A stretch of 30,708 nt of DNA from a virus, in IMG/VR virus record IMGVR_UViG_3300036985_001097, positions 1 through 30,708 of that record; one strand, written 5' to 3'. Below are positions 1,770 through 30,708 of the stretch, in pieces. The notes beneath the pieces were generated by a model that was not told the origin of the DNA, ran no database searches, and was given only the letters and a program-made list of their open reading frames with translations. The position numbers and the translations under genes are program-made. How positions within the stretch are numbered: the stretch's first letter is position 1; every line of letters begins with the position of its first letter.

Positions 1770-2987
1770 ATGGATAACTATACTATACAAACTTTAATTA
1801 CACAAGGCAGAGTAGTAGGCAGTGGTGATGTTGATCCTGCTAACACCTATATACAAATAGGTGTATGGCAACCAGGCAACAGAAAAAGGAATGCATCTAA
1901 TGATGCTTACCCTTCTTATGTTATACCTTTAAGTCAACTAGGTATTGGAAATACTGTATGGGGAACTATAACAGGATTGCTATCTGATCAGTTAGATCTA
2001 CAAGCTGCACTTGATAATAAGTATGATATTAGTAATCCTGCTGGATTTATAGACATCACAGCTTTAGCTCCCTATCAACCTATTCTTGGATATACTCCAG
2101 AAAATGTAGCTAATAAATCTATTGATGGAACTTTAGCTGCAAATAGTGATACACTTTACTCTTCACAAAAAGCAGTAAAGACTTATGTTGATGCATCAGT
2201 TTCTGGCGTATTAGATGATAGAGGTAACTGGGATGCTTCTACTAATTTATTTCCTACTACCGGTGGCTCAGGTCCTGGAGGTTCAATACTTAAAGGTGAT
2301 CTTTGGTTTGTATCTGTACTAGGTATATTAGGAGGGACCCCTGTTGTTGTAGGTAATAACTTTAGAGCTTTGGTAGATAATCCAACACTTTCTACTGATT
2401 GGAATATATTAAATGTAGGTCTTGGTTATATTCCTGAGAACATAGCTAACAAAGGTGTAGCTAATGGCTATGCTAGTTTAGATGCAACAGGTAAAGTACC
2501 GGCAAGTCAGATTAAATATAATACAGTAATAACTCATGGTCATAGTTTTTCTGTTCCAAGTTATGGCACGACAGTTAGTCCAAGATACTATGTGCTATCT
2601 GCTCTTAAAAGTTTAAGTATACCATCTGATCTTGGTGGAACTGGTTTAACAAGTCCTCCACCTTTAACATGGAATGGTAGGATGTCTCCTATACCAAAAA
2701 CAGGAACTATTGTGTCAGCTAAATTTAGCTGGTATATAACACTTGGAAGTAATACTCAACTTTATACTGTAGAGTTTAATAATAGAACAACATCGGTTAG
2801 AACTACTGTAACTACAGCTTTACAAATAGGTCCTAGTTTTTCAGGAAGAGCTAAAACATTTGTTGTATCTGGTTTAAATATTCCTGTTACAGAAAATGAT
2901 GAAGTTTTTACTATTATAACTTGTCCAACTATTGTTGGAACACCTTGTGGAGGTATTACATTATCTGTAGATTATATAATAGAATAA
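1770..2987 (+). CDS. Tail fibre protein, anchor family A
   Basis: 405-residue fibre protein. Residues 1-58 carry the family A anchor (QTLITQGRVVGSGDVDP ... VWQPGNR ... AYPSYVIPLSQL), closest to the gene at 2992. Next comes a shaft with repeats common in phage tail fibres: GYTPENVANKS and GYIPENIANKG, SSQKAVKTYVDA, DDRGNWDASTN, LKGDLWFVS and GYASLDATGKVPASQI. The C-terminal ~130 residues form a different, probably beta-rich tip (ITHGHSFSVPSYG ... SVDYIIE). Two copies of the xPEN(I/V)ANK element about 120 residues apart mark a repeated shaft unit. A fibre role is well supported by composition and repeats; the ligand is unknown. Confidence 0.8.
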   Translation: MDNYTIQTLITQGRVVGSGDVDPANTYIQIGVWQPGNRKRNASNDAYPSYVIPLSQLGIGNTVWGTITGLLSDQLDLQAALDNKYDISNPAGFIDITALAPYQPILGYTPENVANKSIDGTLAANSDTLYSSQKAVKTYVDASVSGVLDDRGNWDASTNLFPTTGGSGPGGSILKGDLWFVSVLGILGGTPVVVGNNFRALVDNPTLSTDWNILNVGLGYIPENIANKGVANGYASLDATGKVPASQIKYNTVITHGHSFSVPSYGTTVSPRYYVLSALKSLSIPSDLGGTGLTSPPPLTWNGRMSPIPKTGTIVSAKFSWYITLGSNTQLYTVEFNNRTTSVRTTVTTALQIGPSFSGRAKTFVVSGLNIPVTENDEVFTIITCPTIVGTPCGGITLSVDYIIE

Positions 2988-2991
2988 TAAA

Positions 2992-4164
2992 ATGGACATA
3001 ACTAAAATACAAACACTAATAGCTCAAGGCAAAATAGTAAATGCTGGAGACATTGATCCAGACACATCTTATTTACAAGTAGGTGTTTGGCAAGAAGGTA
3101 CTAGACAAAAGGGTGCTGCTGGTGAAGCTTATCCTTCTTATGCTATACCTGTTAGTCAAGTAGCTGGTAAACAGATAATAGATGTATTAGGTAGTTCCTT
3201 GTATTCTACAGATCCTGCAGCCGGTCCTAACTTTAATACTGGTGATGGTGTATATTTTGGTTCTCAAGCTGGTAGAGATAGTACTGGTTATGCAAGTATA
3301 TGTATAGGAAATTCTGCAGGAAACAATGCTACAGGAAATGATAATTCTATTTTTATAGGAAGTAATGTTGCCGCTAATACTACAACTTGCTTTGAAAGCC
3401 ACTTTATAGGTTATGATACTGGAAGCAGTGCTAATAGTGCTTATAGATCAAATTTTATTGGTAGGTCTGCTGGTAACAATGCTGATAATGCATACAACTC
3501 TACTTTTATTGGTGTTAATGCTGGGAGAAATGCTTCTAACGGTAGAGCTTCTGTTTATATTGGTTCTTTTGCTGGTCAAGATCATCCTAATGGGTTTGAA
3601 GCTGTATTTATAGGAAACGCTGCAGGTAGTGCAGGTGGATTTTATGGAGCATCTTTTGGATGTTTAAAATCTTTATTTGTAGGAGCACAGTGTGGGGAAG
3701 GTGCAAAAACTGTAACAGATTCTTGCGCTATTGGTAGCAGTGCTATGCGAGGGGCTTCAACTAATGATCAATGTATTGCTATAAATGTAAACTCATTTGA
3801 AGCATCTTCTAACAATACAAGAGTTACTGGTATAGGTACAAATTCTACAAGAGTTTGTAGTGGAAACACAGACTCAATTGGGATAGGATTTAATGCTTTT
3901 TCTGCAAGTAATAATTCTAATAATGTAATTGGTATTGGTTATCAAGCTGCTTACAATAATGACAATGTAAACAATGTTATAGCTTTAGGTTATAATGCAG
4001 GTTTAAATAATACATTAAGTAGTCAGTATATTATTAGTAATAGTAGTTTACCAAGTTATGTTGATAGAACTGCAGCACAAGCTGCTATAGTAGGGGGATC
4101 TGCAGGATCTACTTATTTATATTATAACTCAACAACCGGAGCAATTGAAGGAATAAGATTTTAA
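2992..4164 (+). CDS. Long YadA-like repeat fibre, anchor family A
   Basis: 390 residues. It has the family A anchor (IQTLIAQGKIVNAGDIDP ... VWQEGTRQ ... AYPSYAIPVSQV), then about 16 repeats of 15-20 residues with the core (F/I)IGxxAG (SICIGNSAG, SNFIGRSAG, STFIGVNAG, SVYIGSFAG, AVFIGNAAG). This is the beta-roll pattern of trimeric adhesin heads. The last ~65 residues match the protein at 12, so this is an expanded version of the same architecture. Ala, Gly, Ser and Asn dominate. It begins 4 nt after the previous stop. The ORFs in other frames within the repeat region are shadows caused by repetitive codons. Confidence 0.78.
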   Translation: MDITKIQTLIAQGKIVNAGDIDPDTSYLQVGVWQEGTRQKGAAGEAYPSYAIPVSQVAGKQIIDVLGSSLYSTDPAAGPNFNTGDGVYFGSQAGRDSTGYASICIGNSAGNNATGNDNSIFIGSNVAANTTTCFESHFIGYDTGSSANSAYRSNFIGRSAGNNADNAYNSTFIGVNAGRNASNGRASVYIGSFAGQDHPNGFEAVFIGNAAGSAGGFYGASFGCLKSLFVGAQCGEGAKTVTDSCAIGSSAMRGASTNDQCIAINVNSFEASSNNTRVTGIGTNSTRVCSGNTDSIGIGFNAFSASNNSNNVIGIGYQAAYNNDNVNNVIALGYNAGLNNTLSSQYIISNSSLPSYVDRTAAQAAIVGGSAGSTYLYYNSTTGAIEGIRF

Positions 4165-26010: not shown

Positions 26011-26883
26011 ATGGAAAAGAAAAGAATATACAAACACAGGCCTTACCAGCCTACTGCTAATCTGAGTAAAATATCAGAAGAGCAAAAAGAAAAGGTTAAA
26101 AACTTGTATCTTCAAGGTCTCTCTCAAAGTCAAATTGAGAGAGATCTTAAGATGACAAGAAAAACAATAAGGACCATCCTTAAAAATACTGGGATAGACA
26201 GAACTAAGTCTGAACAGTGGAGAAAGAGATGGGGAAGTTCTTTGAATGAATGTGTCTTTGATGAGCTAACACCGGAAGCTTTATATTGGATTGGGTTCCT
26301 TTATGCTGATGGGCATGTTAGAAAAGATGAAGCTGAGTATTCTATAGAAATTGAGATTGAACTTAAAGATAGAGAACATCTAGTTAAGTTTGCTCAATTT
26401 TTAGAATGTAATAAAGAACCTAAACAATATTCAGATAATAGTTGTACTCTTAGGATTTATTCTAAAAAAATAAACCGGAGACTTAAAGAACTGGGATTGC
26501 ATCATAATAAAAGTTACACAGCCAAACCTCATGAATTATTAAAAGATTCTAGAGATTTTTGGAGAGGTGTAGTAGATGGTGATGGTGGAGTTTATACATT
26601 CCAGTCAACTGGGTATAATGTTAATCAACTTTCACTTTGTGGAACTTTAGAAACAATACTTGACTTTATAATTTTTTGCAGTAAGCAATGTAATATAAAA
26701 GATAAGTATCCAAGTCATTCTTCTAAATCTAAGTCTTTATATCAAGTTCACTATTATAGTAGTGATGCTATAAAAATAACAGATTTACTTTACAAAGACT
26801 CAACAATCTATTTAGACAGAAAGTACCAAAAGTACTTAGAATTTATAGATTTAAATAAATTAGTACCTGGAGAGAAAGTTTAG
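26011..26883 (+). CDS. LAGLIDADG homing endonuclease with N-terminal HTH
   Basis: 290 residues. An N-terminal helix-turn-helix (residues ~28-60, NLYLQGLSQSQIERDLKMTR then KTIRTILKNTG) may bind DNA. Two LAGLIDADG motifs follow: LYWIGFLYADG at ~91-101 (catalytic Asp100) and FWRGVVDGDGG at ~183-193 (catalytic Asp191). The single-chain, two-motif form cuts an asymmetric site of ~20 bp and copies itself by homing. It lies immediately after the capsid gene and before a conserved gene, with its own promoter, so it is free-standing rather than intron-encoded as far as can be seen. A long hairpin overlaps its stop. The ORFs in other frames are shadows. Confidence 0.88.
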   Translation: MEKKRIYKHRPYQPTANLSKISEEQKEKVKNLYLQGLSQSQIERDLKMTRKTIRTILKNTGIDRTKSEQWRKRWGSSLNECVFDELTPEALYWIGFLYADGHVRKDEAEYSIEIEIELKDREHLVKFAQFLECNKEPKQYSDNSCTLRIYSKKINRRLKELGLHHNKSYTAKPHELLKDSRDFWRGVVDGDGGVYTFQSTGYNVNQLSLCGTLETILDFIIFCSKQCNIKDKYPSHSSKSKSLYQVHYYSSDAIKITDLLYKDSTIYLDRKYQKYLEFIDLNKLVPGEKV

Positions 26884-27032: not shown

Positions 27033-28049
27033 ATGAGTGTAACTTTAGTATCCTTAGCTGAAACAGCTAAAAGTGGCAGTATATCTGTCAAACCGTTCTT
27101 TGATCCAAACAAGAGTAATCTAGGTCTAGAAAAATATGGACTAGCTTTATTTGATGGTGTATTTCATGAAGAGCAATTAGCATGCATTGAGAGAAATGGT
27201 GTAAAAAGATACCTAACAGGTCTTAATGAATTTGCTCCTGAAATTAAACTTATCAAAAATGATGAAGAGAGAGAAGCTAAGATCAAAGAAATTAGATCAA
27301 TAGTATCTCAGCTAGAAAAGGATTTATCAGCAAACATTGTTGATCCTAAAGATCCTGACTTCTGGAATAAGATTAAATTACTAGCTCCAGGTAACAGTGA
27401 GTTCTGGGATAAGATAACAATTAGATGTGGTAATGAACCAGTTATCTTAGATCCTGTTAAAGATCCTCTAGACTTGATTAAGATTTATGCAATTGAAGCA
27501 GGTGGCTTTTCTATAGTATCTAAAAGTTATGATGATGCTAGAAACAGAGCAGTTCCTCCTAAATTCTACTTAGACAAGTTTGTAGAGACAGTAGCTGTTA
27601 AAACAGAAGTTACTAAACTTAGAAACAAAGCTATATCTGAACTTACCAAGTTATTTGATAAGAATCAGAACAAGCTTCTTTATGTTGCTAAAGTTGTGGA
27701 TGGTAACAGTGTTCAATACAAGAAGTCTATTCCTAATGATATTGTTTATGATAACATGGACAGATTCATCAGAGGAGAAGGAGTTGAAGGTAACCTTAAG
27801 AGAGCAGCTCAGATGTTCTTAGATGCTTGTGCTCTTGATATGGAAACATTAAAAATCAAATGCATTGTTAGAGATTGTACTTATTACAAGTACATTATAC
27901 CTAAGTCTGATGGATTTATCTATCATACAGACAGTTCTACAATGATGGGTAGAAATGCATCTGATTGTGTAGAGTTCTTAAAGAACCCACTTAATGATGC
28001 AATCTTACTAGATCTTACTAAGAAAGTTGAAAGATATTGGAATGTTTAA
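27033..28049 (+). CDS. Conserved phage protein of unknown function (virion-associated candidate)
   Basis: 338 residues with mixed alpha/beta character. Segments that look conserved include LEKYGLALFDGVFHEEQLAC, NEFAPEIKLIKNDEEREAKI and a C-terminal DCTYYKYIIPKSDGFIYHTD. No membrane helix or catalytic motif stands out. It has its own strong promoter, follows the capsid gene in the original gene order, and leads into the small basic proteins. A head-completion or virion-associated role is inferred from position only. The LAGLIDADG gene appears to have inserted between it and the capsid gene. Confidence 0.68.
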   Translation: MSVTLVSLAETAKSGSISVKPFFDPNKSNLGLEKYGLALFDGVFHEEQLACIERNGVKRYLTGLNEFAPEIKLIKNDEEREAKIKEIRSIVSQLEKDLSANIVDPKDPDFWNKIKLLAPGNSEFWDKITIRCGNEPVILDPVKDPLDLIKIYAIEAGGFSIVSKSYDDARNRAVPPKFYLDKFVETVAVKTEVTKLRNKAISELTKLFDKNQNKLLYVAKVVDGNSVQYKKSIPNDIVYDNMDRFIRGEGVEGNLKRAAQMFLDACALDMETLKIKCIVRDCTYYKYIIPKSDGFIYHTDSSTMMGRNASDCVEFLKNPLNDAILLDLTKKVERYWNV

Positions 28050-28068
28050 TATTTAAAATTATAATACA

Positions 28069-28380
28069 ATGAAAAAAGCAATGAAAAAAGCTCCAGTTAA
28101 AAAAATGAAAACTGGTGGAATGGAAAACCCTAATGCTACAGTTACTGTAAACAAAACTCCAACTAAATATACTGGTGGAATGAATGCAGCAGCAACAGTT
28201 AATAAAGTTCCTACCAAATATACAGGTGGTAAATCAACTGCTCCAGCAGGTGCTGTTCCTGCAGCTAAATATGGTACCATGATGAAAAAAGGTGGTGCTA
28301 TGTCTAAATACAAATCAGGTGGACAAGGTACAGCTAACAAGATTGGTAAAATGGTAAAAATCTCTAAAAAGATAAAATAA
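28069..28380 (+). CDS. Lys/Gly-rich small protein with KYTGG repeats
   Basis: 103 residues, very basic, built from repeated elements: VNKTPTKYTGGM and VNKVPTKYTGGK (two copies about 18 residues apart), and KKGGAM / YKSGG motifs. It begins MKKAMKKAPVKKMKTGGM and ends KIGKMVKISKKIK. It is low-complexity and probably disordered, fitting a nucleic-acid-binding internal virion protein. First gene of a chain of small basic genes, with a 2-nt gap to the next start. Confidence 0.66.
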   Translation: MKKAMKKAPVKKMKTGGMENPNATVTVNKTPTKYTGGMNAAATVNKVPTKYTGGKSTAPAGAVPAAKYGTMMKKGGAMSKYKSGGQGTANKIGKMVKISKKIK

Positions 28381-28382
28381 TC

Positions 28383-28532
28383 ATGGCTAAAAAATGTGCA
28401 GCTTGTGAAAAAGCTAAAATGAAAAAAGGTGGCTTTCCTGATCTTAATAAAGATGGAAAAATAACTAAAGCAGATGTCCTTAAAGGCAGAGGTGTTATTA
28501 AGAAAATGGGTGGAGCTAGTAAAAGAAAATAA
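28383..28532 (+). CDS. Basic microprotein with CxxC and EF-hand-like loop
   Basis: 49 residues. An N-terminal CxxC (KKCAACEK) is followed by KMKKGGF, then a canonical 12-residue EF-hand loop, DLNKDGKITKAD (D20, N22, D24, G25, I27, D31), and a basic tail (VLKGRGVIKKMGGASKRK). The EF-hand pattern suggests Ca binding; with only one loop it would need a partner or a dimer. Starts at ATG 28383, 2 nt after the previous stop, and ends 2 nt before the next start. Below the usual size cut-off, but the context and the motif support it. Confidence 0.66.
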   Translation: MAKKCAACEKAKMKKGGFPDLNKDGKITKADVLKGRGVIKKMGGASKRK

Positions 28533-28534
28533 CC

Positions 28535-28687
28535 ATGGCAAAGAAGGCAGGCTTATATGCCAACATACATGCTAAAAGAAAAAGGATCCAAGCTGGCTCC
28601 GGGGAAAAGATGAGAAAACCCGGGGCTGCTGGTGCTCCTAGTAAAAAAGATTTTATTAACTCAGCTAAGACAGCTAAAAAGAAATAA
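28535..28687 (+). CDS. Basic microprotein, DUF5872-like
   Basis: 50 residues (AGLYANIHAKRKRIQAGSGE, then KMRKPGAAGAPSKKDF). The xxLxANIHxKRKRI(Q)AGSGEKMRKPG pattern is a recurrent small protein of phages and Bacteroidota that I associate with DUF5872; the family name is from memory and not checked. Strongly basic with a Gly/Pro hinge. It lies in the chain with 2-nt spacings on both sides. Confidence 0.6.
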   Translation: MAKKAGLYANIHAKRKRIQAGSGEKMRKPGAAGAPSKKDFINSAKTAKKK

Positions 28688-28689
28688 TT

Positions 28690-28905
28690 ATGGCAAACTC
28701 AAAAAAAACACTTGTTAAAATGGATAAAGAATATCAAGCTAAATGGGATCTTGATACTTTAAGACAAGCTAAAGAAATTGAGTCTAATGCTGCTAGAATG
28801 AGAGCAGCTCAAAACTATGCTAAAGAACAAGTTAAAATGTTAGGCGGTATAGTATCAGGTACAGGTAAAGCTCCGGCTAAAAAATCACTATCTAAAAAGA
28901 AGTAA
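28690..28905 (+). CDS. Basic helical small protein
   Basis: 71 residues. A central helical region (KEYQAKWDLDTLRQAKEIES, then ARMRAAQNYAKEQVKMLGG) is flanked by Lys-rich ends (MANSKKTLVKM and APAKKSLSKKK). No known family recognised. It ends 1 nt before the next ATG (the start of the split gene at 28907). Confidence 0.62.
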   Translation: MANSKKTLVKMDKEYQAKWDLDTLRQAKEIESNAARMRAAQNYAKEQVKMLGGIVSGTGKAPAKKSLSKKK

Positions 28906-28906
28906 T

Positions 28907-28954
28907 ATGGCAGATAAGAAGTGGATACAAAAAGCTACAGCTTCTATTATATAA
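28907..28954 (+). pseudogene. Displaced 5' end of the gene that continues at 29620
   Basis: ATG at 28907 follows the chain's usual TAATATGGC junction and reads MADKKWIQKATASII before a stop at 28952-28954. The same pattern (MTKKNWIGDVAKSIKK) begins the gene at 29620, downstream of the HNH endonuclease. The N-terminus thus appears twice, once as this truncated stub and once attached to the rest of the gene. This is what an endonuclease insertion near the start of the gene would leave. Confidence 0.6.
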
Positions 28955-28961
28955 AAATTAT

Positions 28962-28986
28962 TAGTATATTTATAAAAAATATACTA
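28962..28986 (+). promoter_or_regulatory. Hairpin immediately upstream of the HNH endonuclease
   Basis: A perfect 9-bp stem (TAGTATATT / AATATACTA) with a 7-nt loop ends 8 nt before the start codon at 28995. Homing endonuclease genes in T4-like phages are often preceded by a hairpin that limits early translation; the arrangement here is similar, but its function is inferred. Confidence 0.45.
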
Positions 28987-28994
28987 TATTTAAT

Positions 28995-29645
28995 ATGATA
29001 ATTATTTGTGATTTTTGTAATGGTGAATATAAAACTTTTCTTAATTGGTATAAAAGAAATAAACACCACACCTGTAGTAGAGAATGTTCTGATAATTTAA
29101 AGAAAAAATTATCAATTAAAAAGTGTAAATATTGTAATATAGATTTTTATAGTAAAAGTCATCAAAATAAAAAAAAATATTGTAGTATAATTTGTTCAAG
29201 TAAAGCTCAAGATAAAAAAGAAATATTAAACTGTAAAATATGTAATAAAGAATATAAAGTTAGTAAATGTAGAGTTGGCATATCTAAGTTTTGTAGTAAA
29301 AAATGTCTTAGTAAACACACTGGGTATTTAGCAAGTTTAAGAATAGGTTCTTTGAATAAAAATTATAAAGGGTTTGATGATACAAAAAGAAAAAATAAAA
29401 GTAAACTTAAATCTTGGGCAAATGTTATAAAAAATAGAGACAAGTCTTGTAAAAAATGTAATAGTATTGTAAATTTACAATCACATCATATAAAATCATA
29501 TAGCAAATATCCTGAATTAAGATTTGATTTAGAAAATGGTATTTTATTATGTAATATATGTCATGCAAAAGAACATGAAAATGATATAAGACAGGTTAAA
29601 AATTTAATATTAAAAAGATATGACAAAAAAGAATTGGATAGGTGA
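28995..29645 (+). CDS. HNH homing endonuclease with zinc-finger N-terminus
   Basis: 216 residues. Three Cys pairs or quartets at about 5/8/27/31, 44/47/63/67 and 80/83/100/104 form zinc-knuckle-like DNA-binding units. The C-terminal part is an HNH domain: CKKC at 152-155, SHHI with His164/165, the Asn of LENGILLC (181), CNIC at 186-189 and HAKEHE (His190, His194). The gene is more AT-rich and Lys-rich than its neighbours, as is common for mobile endonucleases. It separates the stub at 28907 from the gene at 29620 and overlaps the latter by 26 nt in another frame. Whether it sits in an intron or is free-standing is not settled. Confidence 0.83.
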   Translation: MIIICDFCNGEYKTFLNWYKRNKHHTCSRECSDNLKKKLSIKKCKYCNIDFYSKSHQNKKKYCSIICSSKAQDKKEILNCKICNKEYKVSKCRVGISKFCSKKCLSKHTGYLASLRIGSLNKNYKGFDDTKRKNKSKLKSWANVIKNRDKSCKKCNSIVNLQSHHIKSYSKYPELRFDLENGILLCNICHAKEHENDIRQVKNLILKRYDKKELDR

Positions 29646-29778
29646 TGTAGCAAAATCCATTAAAAAAAGAGGTACTGAAGGCAAGTGTACTCCAATTACT
29701 AAACCAGGTTGCACAGGTAAAGCTAAAGCATTAGCTATGACTTTTAAGAAAATGGCAGCTGCTAGAAAAAAGAAATAA
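29620..29778 (+). CDS. Small basic protein rebuilt downstream of the HNH endonuclease
   Basis: 52 residues: MTKKNWIGDVAKSIKK, then RGTEGKCTPITKPGCTGKAK and a Lys/Ala-rich end (MTFKKMAAARKKK). This resembles a widespread small phage protein family beginning MxxKKWIxxAxxxIKK with two Cys and a TPxTKxxCT-like middle. ATG at 29620 lies inside the end of the HNH reading frame, in a different frame. The start context (GATATGAC) differs from the TAATATGGC context of its neighbours, suggesting that this N-terminus was supplied with the endonuclease. The reading frame is intact to TAA at 29776-29778. Confidence 0.66.
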   Translation: MTKKNWIGDVAKSIKKRGTEGKCTPITKPGCTGKAKALAMTFKKMAAARKKK

Positions 29779-29779
29779 T

Positions 29780-30325
29780 ATGGCTAAGAAAGTTTTAAAG
29801 AAAGCACAGTTTGGTCTTTTTAAAAAGAAACCAGCTCCTGTAGATAGCAATGCTTATTTTAATGCTGCTATTAATGATGCTCAGCAAAGAGCTAATTGGA
29901 GAGGTGCTGCAGGTTATGTCAGTGCTGCAAATGCAGCTATGAATGAGAAAGCAAACTATGAAAAAAAACTTGCTGCTTATAAAGCAAGAACATCTGCTAA
30001 AGAAGCTTCATCTAAAGAAGCTCTTAAAAAGATTCAAGAAAAAGGTGCTAGTTCTTTCCTTGTAGAACAGAAAAAAACAGGTGGAGCAACAAAAGCTAAA
30101 GTATCAGCTGGTGGTGAAAAACATGTAGTCTATAAAAAGACTAACAAGATAGGCAAAGGTAAACCTGGCAATATCATGGTAAACCATCCTACCAAAGATA
30201 AAGGTAAATGGGATACTATAGACCTTACTAAAAAAGCTGGTGCAAAAACTGTAGCTCAAGGTGTAGCCGCCACCAAAAAATGGCATAGAGAAAACCCTTA
30301 TCCAAAACCTAAAAAGAAAAAGTAA
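29780..30325 (+). CDS. Lys/Ala-rich virion-associated protein candidate
   Basis: 181 residues, strongly basic. An N-terminal AKKVLKKAQFGLFKKKPAP is followed by an Ala-rich helical stretch (AINDAQQRANWRGAAGYVSA), a Lys/Ser/Glu-rich segment, a Gly/Lys-rich middle (VVYKKTNKIGKGKPGNIMVN) and a basic end (KKWHRENPYPKPKKKK). Composition fits a DNA-condensing or core protein of the head. 1-nt gaps to both neighbours. The minus-strand ORF over the 3' end is a shadow. Confidence 0.62.
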   Translation: MAKKVLKKAQFGLFKKKPAPVDSNAYFNAAINDAQQRANWRGAAGYVSAANAAMNEKANYEKKLAAYKARTSAKEASSKEALKKIQEKGASSFLVEQKKTGGATKAKVSAGGEKHVVYKKTNKIGKGKPGNIMVNHPTKDKGKWDTIDLTKKAGAKTVAQGVAATKKWHRENPYPKPKKKK

Positions 30326-30326
30326 T

Positions 30327-30602
30327 ATGGCAAAGACAGCTGCTTGGACCCGAAAAGAGGGTAAGAACAAAACAGGAGGATTAAATGCTAAAGGTGTTGC
30401 TTCTTATAGAAAAGAAAACCCAGGTAGTAAACTTAAGATGGCCGTTACTACTAAGCCATCTAAACTAGATCCAGATAGTAAAGATGCTAAAAGAAGAAAA
30501 AGCTTTTGTGCAAGATCTGCAGGACAAATGGCTAATTTTCCAAAAGCAGCTAAAGACCCAAATAGTAGATTAAGACTAGCAAGAAAAAAATGGAATTGTT
30601 AA
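30327..30602 (+). CDS. DUF6321-like small protein
   Basis: 91 residues. The pattern TAAWTRKEGKNKTGGLNAKG, VASYRKENPGSKLK, then RRKSFCARSAGQM and DPNSRLRLARKKWNC recurs in many large phages and related genomes and corresponds, from memory, to DUF6321. The SFCARSxG ... ARKKWNC core is very distinctive. Basic, two Cys near the end. Function is unknown; location next to other small basic genes suggests a virion or late role. Confidence 0.7.
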   Translation: MAKTAAWTRKEGKNKTGGLNAKGVASYRKENPGSKLKMAVTTKPSKLDPDSKDAKRRKSFCARSAGQMANFPKAAKDPNSRLRLARKKWNC

Positions 30603-30613
30603 AACAATATATT

Positions 30614-30708
30614 ATGAAAAAATCAAATAACTCAAACCCATTAAAAACCTTCAATGATAACTATGACAAGAAAGTCAAAAAAGTTACAGAAGGTAACAAG
30701 AAACTAGT
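30614..30708 (+). CDS. Partial small basic protein, cut by the window edge
   Basis: ATG at 30614 opens a frame (MKKSNNSNPLKTFNDNYDKK ... VKKVTEGNKK) that runs off the end after about 31 codons. Lys/Asn-rich, like its upstream neighbours, and therefore probably another member of the chain. The rest is not available. Confidence 0.55.
   Translation, partial: MKKSNNSNPLKTFNDNYDKKVKKVTEGNKKL

Follow-up and report, generated by a model that had tools for sequence, protein, structure and literature searches.

Homing endonucleases cut the allele that is free of their cassette, and repair of the break copies them in. A cassette situated inside codons would disrupt its target unless it were spliced out, and to our knowledge it is generally thought that homing endonucleases within coding genes need an intron, an intein or a split that the gene tolerates. 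Several described systems bear on this. Fungal mitochondria contain mobile ORFs that carry foreign gene ends, in the atp6 gene of Allomyces and in atp6, atp9, cox2 and nad3 of Glomus (PMC3630166). The seg and mob genes of phage T4 are free-standing and, in the sections of a review that concern them, lie between genes, split genes or house the promoter of the next gene; the same sections cover the nrdA gene of Aeromonas phage Aeh1, which is split by MobE to give genes-in-pieces (PMC2988022). A recent survey of phage nuclease genes (PMC10448857) reports insertions and splicing; an arrangement in which the start of the interrupted gene is replaced was not found in the text searched. Within the open-access literature, such an arrangement seems to be undescribed for phages.

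Below, we describe a locus of this kind in IMG/VR virus record IMGVR_UViG_3300036985_001097, of which positions 1 to 30,708 (30,708 nt, referred to as the window) were analysed. The insert is considered, with a probability of about 0.85, to be a free-standing homing cassette whose HNH gene runs at its 3' end into a foreign copy of the target's first 14 codons, with a different spelling.

Layout of the interrupted micro-gene

The window encodes a terminase, a portal and a major head protein, followed by an array of short lysine-rich genes, one of which is interrupted. The features are listed in Table 1, and all coordinates of the original prediction were confirmed on the window sequence and its ORF list. 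The stub ORF (MADKKWIQKATASII, 15 residues, 28907-28954, with its stop codon at 28952-28954) begins at the usual TAATATGGC junction of the array, whereas the second ORF (29620-29778, 52 residues, beginning MTKKNWIGDVAKSIKKRGTEGKC...) has its start within the final 26 nt of the endonuclease ORF and in another frame; both starts are where they had been placed. The 52 residues equal the length of intact homologues such as that in locus L087.

Table 1. Features of the interrupted micro-gene and its neighbours (window coordinates).
Feature	Position	Strand	Basis
Upstream array gene, 71 aa	28690..28905	+	ORF lists of the window and relatives
Native first 14 codons of the micro-gene, MADKKWIQKATASI	28907..28948	+	40/42 nt to empty-site L091/L096, 38/42 to L087
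Inserted cassette, 713 bp: 46 bp leader, HNH gene and apparently foreign gene start	28949..29661	+	Absent between ATT and AAA in L087, L091, L096, L101, L102
10-bp RNA hairpin just 5' of the HNH AUG	28962..28986	+	Fold -11.2 kcal/mol, z -2.67
HNH endonuclease, 216 aa, Cys pairs in N-terminal half	28995..29645	+	PF01844 and phrog_1271 matches
Replacement start, apparently foreign, MTKKNWIGDVAKSI	29620..29661	+	25/42 nt to empty-site L096; nearest L040, L002 (30/39 nt)
Native micro-gene remainder, 38 codons and stop	29662..29778	+	98/117 nt to L091/L096; continues the frame of the replacement start
Next array gene, 181 aa	29780..30325	+	ORF list; array resumes here

The 216-residue ORF contains an HNH domain (PF01844, 27 bits against a curated cut-off of 21.4, E 5e-6) and matches phrog_1271, a family of HNH endonucleases (E 1e-16). 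Between 28949 and 29619 the GC content is 0.198, compared with about 0.35 in the flanks. The left end of the cassette follows ATT, and the right end is at 29661 or further 3'. Because ATT ends both the stub and the restart, the boundary can be placed only to within 3 nt, and foreign sequence may extend beyond 29661 into the micro-gene body. A fold as stable as that of the leader hairpin occurred in two of 200 shuffles of its region, and the hairpin possibly controls translation of the HNH gene. Translational hairpins that resemble it are found in the homing endonuclease genes of T4.

An orthologue of the upstream 71-residue gene is located directly 5' of the intact micro-gene in L101, L102 and L111, with no endonuclease between them, and the C-terminal part of the 181-residue protein resembles the product of an 80-aa gene 3' of the micro-gene in L111. 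Elsewhere in the window, a gene for a LAGLIDADG-type endonuclease with an N-terminal HTH lies at 26011-26883, between the major head protein gene and the gene at 27033; its homologues occupy the same place in L355 and L358, and there is no start copy. At 712-1767 and 1770-4164 there are two neighbouring gene pairs with common N-termini (MNEFK.LPK... and MD..TIQTLI.QG...), which are probably tail-tip paralogues.

Empty-site relatives and the origin of the second start

A search of IMG/VR provided 80 micro-gene loci and 80 loci of the neighbouring 338-aa gene. Every relative that carries the micro-gene has exactly one copy of it. In L087, L091, L096, L101 and L102 this copy is intact (MADKKWIQKATASIKKRGTEGKC or very similar); it reads MADKKWIQKATASIKKRGTEGKCTPITKPGCTGKAKALALTFKK... 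in L087 and similarly in the other four. The site is empty in all five, so that the HNH gene is optional there. At the junction, these relatives have ATT and AAA joined within a single intact micro-gene, preceded in L101 and L102 by the same upstream gene as in the window, and no locus was found in which both short genes occur without the endonuclease. The stub resembles the uninterrupted homologues: it is identical to the 5' ends of L087, L091, L096 and L101 at 37-40 of 42 nt. The restart (29620-29661) matches L091/L096 at only 25 of 42 nt, against 40 of 42 for the stub at the same empty site (Fisher p 1.4e-4). Since the stub and the body both match intact single-copy homologues, it follows that 713 bp (28949-29661) have been inserted between ATT and AAA. 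It had also been suggested that the array is essential; this description is not supported, since the micro-gene is missing from the related arrays of L100, L104 and L106.

The case cannot be made from the window's two N-termini by themselves. They have 6 of 14 residues and 26 of 42 nt in common, a similarity that is weak alone when set against random pairings of phage endonuclease loci (p about 0.006-0.016) and is not significant in a simple shuffle test on these two N-termini (z 1.4); the case therefore rests on the relatives. With these included, the likeness of stub and restart is far beyond what chance would be expected to give, and the proposal that they are two versions of one N-terminus, for which 6 of 14 residues had been slender evidence, is borne out.

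The three parts were each compared with 66 distinct homologous 5' ends. For the stub, the best matches are phages of its own group (37/39 nt), and this is also true of the first 90 nt of the micro-gene body (83/90 and 82/90). The restart is nearest to another group, represented by L040 and L002 (VKKNWIGDVAASI and SKKNWIQDVSKSI; 30/39 nt, 10-11 of 13 residues), and agrees with own-group phages at only 20-23 of 39 nt. At the level of sequence, comparison thus establishes that the gene was ancestrally intact, where the insertion lies, that both flanks are native and that the restart is foreign in character. The most satisfactory reading of the insert is an endonuclease linked to a gene start of foreign origin, which seems to have arrived with the cassette from another lineage and not to have been formed from sequence at the site. 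It should be noted that the restart, at 42 nt, offers few sites on which to judge its foreign origin, and a local duplicate that diverged faster retains a small probability. The window's HNH cassette is known from a single contig, the nearest relative (L086) ending before the site; the HNH protein, used as a query, retrieved only distant relatives from other contexts, and a donor phage with this gene was not found among them.

The same order at other phage genes

Judged from gene order and alignment, the succession of stub, endonuclease and restart recurs at four other genes, with endonuclease-VII-type and GIY-YIG genes. In every such case a truncated native start is found 5' of the endonuclease and an altered start 3' of it, and the start-copy scores exceed those of unrelated pairings. 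Together with the empty-site relatives, this supports the original prediction that an endonuclease split the micro-gene and supplied it with a new start.

In three phages, a virion gene is broken after MLNSAILI by an endonuclease-VII-type gene. In L101, the endonuclease gene itself begins MLNSAILI in frame, and the next gene, which encodes a virion structural protein, restarts with MLNQAILI across the endonuclease stop; L088, L092 and L095 repeat this arrangement. The site is empty in the close relative L100, where the uninterrupted 24 nt equal the left copy of L101 at 24/24 and the right copy at 17/24. In these cases, 5-7 of 24 nt and 0-1 residues distinguish the left copy from the right. Right copies from different phages were no more alike than left copies, so that the signature of a shared restart was not found in the endonuclease-VII cases.

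A screen of related phage genomes placed a GIY-YIG gene in the P-loop of deoxynucleotide monophosphate kinase, with the stub MIIGISGKLGSG and the restart MILAISGRIGSGKDT. A survey of further endonuclease loci showed the same site invaded in L360/L361 and L362-L364, which with L325 makes three phages. In L325 the two copies differ at 16 of 36 nt and 4 of 12 residues. The left junction is common to L325 and L360 almost base for base. The endonuclease 3' end and the restart form one 263-nt block that is 83% identical between L325 and L364, compared with 58% for the kinases. Because this block spans both elements, the restart travels with the endonuclease in L325/L364. Further GIY-YIG genes interrupt the IPxRQIGW gene of two phages (L346 and L386) and the KDFIKML gene of one (L369). 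Near-identical arrangements come from two or three separate metagenomes (L360/L361; L362/L363/L364; L092/L095), which makes assembly error unlikely. The restart overlaps the endonuclease by 26 nt in the window, 8 nt in the endonuclease-VII cases, 4 nt in L325 and not at all in L346, and the overlaps would suit translational reinitiation.

Directly 3' of the stub in two of the GIY-YIG cassettes (L325:1263-1299 and L360:1979-2015) there is a TTTG-N20-TATATTTG motif, which occurs at about 0.04 per kb across all loci. It resembles host-type promoters of Bacteroidota, and the GIY-YIG cassette may bring its own promoter; the window has its hairpin after the stub in place of this motif.

No start copy accompanied the LAGLIDADG, the small HNH and several of the GIY-YIG genes of related phages, and the architecture is thus recurrent but not universal. 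Eight loci from named phage records (Flavobacterium, Bacteroides, Klebsiella, Salmonella, Yersinia and Tunturiibacter host isolates and one uncultured huge phage) gave no convincing stub and restart by a prefix test. L455 (MVNKL...) was discounted as a weak candidate, and so were matches such as L401 and L448. In Klebsiella phage KN4-1 (L468:2243-2776), an endonuclease VII gene shares 35 nt with the first 12 codons of the tail gene, in another frame and without a stub, which is possibly a related stage. The huge-phage record LR756502 (L467:2440-2510) has a P-loop-like IFLGKSGSG without ATG just 5' of a GIY-YIG gene related to the kinase-site family. In crAss001, gp18 (L466:2507-3079), which is a GIY-YIG gene annotated as an intron endonuclease, is directly 5' of the terminase gene, with whose annotated start it has an overlap of 29 nt.

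Alternatives, mechanism and relation to known systems

The stub and the second start could descend from tandem paralogous micro-genes, the endonuclease having truncated the first from within and the second start belonging to a separate old gene. Paralogues do occur in arrays of short genes whose starts are similar, and the two N-termini here have only 6 of 14 residues in common, but each relative with the gene has one copy only, the body after 29661 matches a single-copy gene whose start matches the stub, and the same order is repeated at four other genes; we regard this explanation as very improbable. Scarcely less improbable is a local origin, in which the endonuclease inserted into the gene, and part of the gene's own 5' end was duplicated in tandem and diverged fast to become the restart. 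The duplicated stretch does end at the insertion point, and the left and right copies at the endonuclease-VII site are near-identical in protein. However, the window's restart is nearer to another lineage than to its own group, that of L325/L364 belongs to a block held in common with the endonuclease 3' end, and in L101 it is the left copy, not the right, that equals the empty site.

The original prediction had allowed that an intron might be spliced so as to join MADKKWIQKATASI to KKRGTEGKC; this would be a self-splicing intron with the endonuclease inside it. The exon boundaries would then coincide exactly with those of the insertion. Against this, no Rfam intron family was matched in 27900-30708 at E up to 10, only 62 bp lie outside the ORF (46 bp before it and 16 bp after), and splicing would account neither for the 3' copy of the gene start nor for the recurrence of this order at four other genes, so that we give it almost no credence. 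An intein was rejected since the insert is not in frame with both host parts, the stub having its own stop and the restart a different frame from the endonuclease. A split gene of the Aeh1 nrdA type was likewise rejected, as the downstream ORF alone encodes all 52 residues, as in intact homologues.

A cassette that replaces the start of its target thus remains our preferred explanation. It lies between codons 14 and 15 of the resident gene, where it cuts the native start down to a 15-residue stub, which looks dispensable, and supplies a new AUG and N-terminus reading into the resident body, such that the target protein could still be made. The HNH protein would cut the uninterrupted gene, and double-strand-break repair would copy the cassette into it. 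The altered codons would keep the restored gene uncut, the restart no longer matching the cut site, and the restart would be translated, probably by reinitiation after the overlapping endonuclease ORF. This leads to a directly testable prediction, namely that the enzyme cleaves the empty gene while sparing the restored one.

Such cassettes would show another way of living within coding genes, by replacing the start of the interrupted gene even at sites as constrained as a P-loop, and would explain odd stub ORFs beside phage endonucleases. The odds seem about even that this is a general strategy of phage selfish DNA, in which unrelated endonuclease classes independently evolved to carry altered copies of the target's 5' end. 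On this view they could occupy codons for catalytic or structural residues with neither an intron nor an intein and would be natural home-and-rescue drives, the recoded start also preventing renewed cutting and so holding the cassette in place.

As in T4, the GIY-YIG and HNH genes described here are without introns and lie in or beside conserved phage genes, although no replacement gene start is described for the T4 genes in the sections of PMC2988022 that concern them. According to the same sections, the nrdA gene of Aeh1 also has a homing endonuclease inside a coding gene without splicing, but there both halves are kept and work together, whereas here the front piece is replaced. Engineered home-and-rescue drives (PMC7968924, PMC8996256) likewise combine insertion in a target gene with a recoded end that restores function and is cut-resistant; these are man-made and Cas9-based, the phage restart is predicted to be cut-resistant, and the cassettes would be a natural precedent for recoded-rescue drives. 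In the fungal mobile ORFs (PMC3630166), as here, an endonuclease gene in a coding gene brings a divergent foreign copy of the gene end that it displaces, the stranded native end resembling a close relative and the active end being foreign. The window has the same combination, with 40/42 nt for its native end against 25/42 for the active one and mosaic affinities. In the fungal case it is the carboxy-terminal end that is replaced, in mitochondria, and here it is the amino-terminal end, in phages, the one being for the most part the mirror image of the other.
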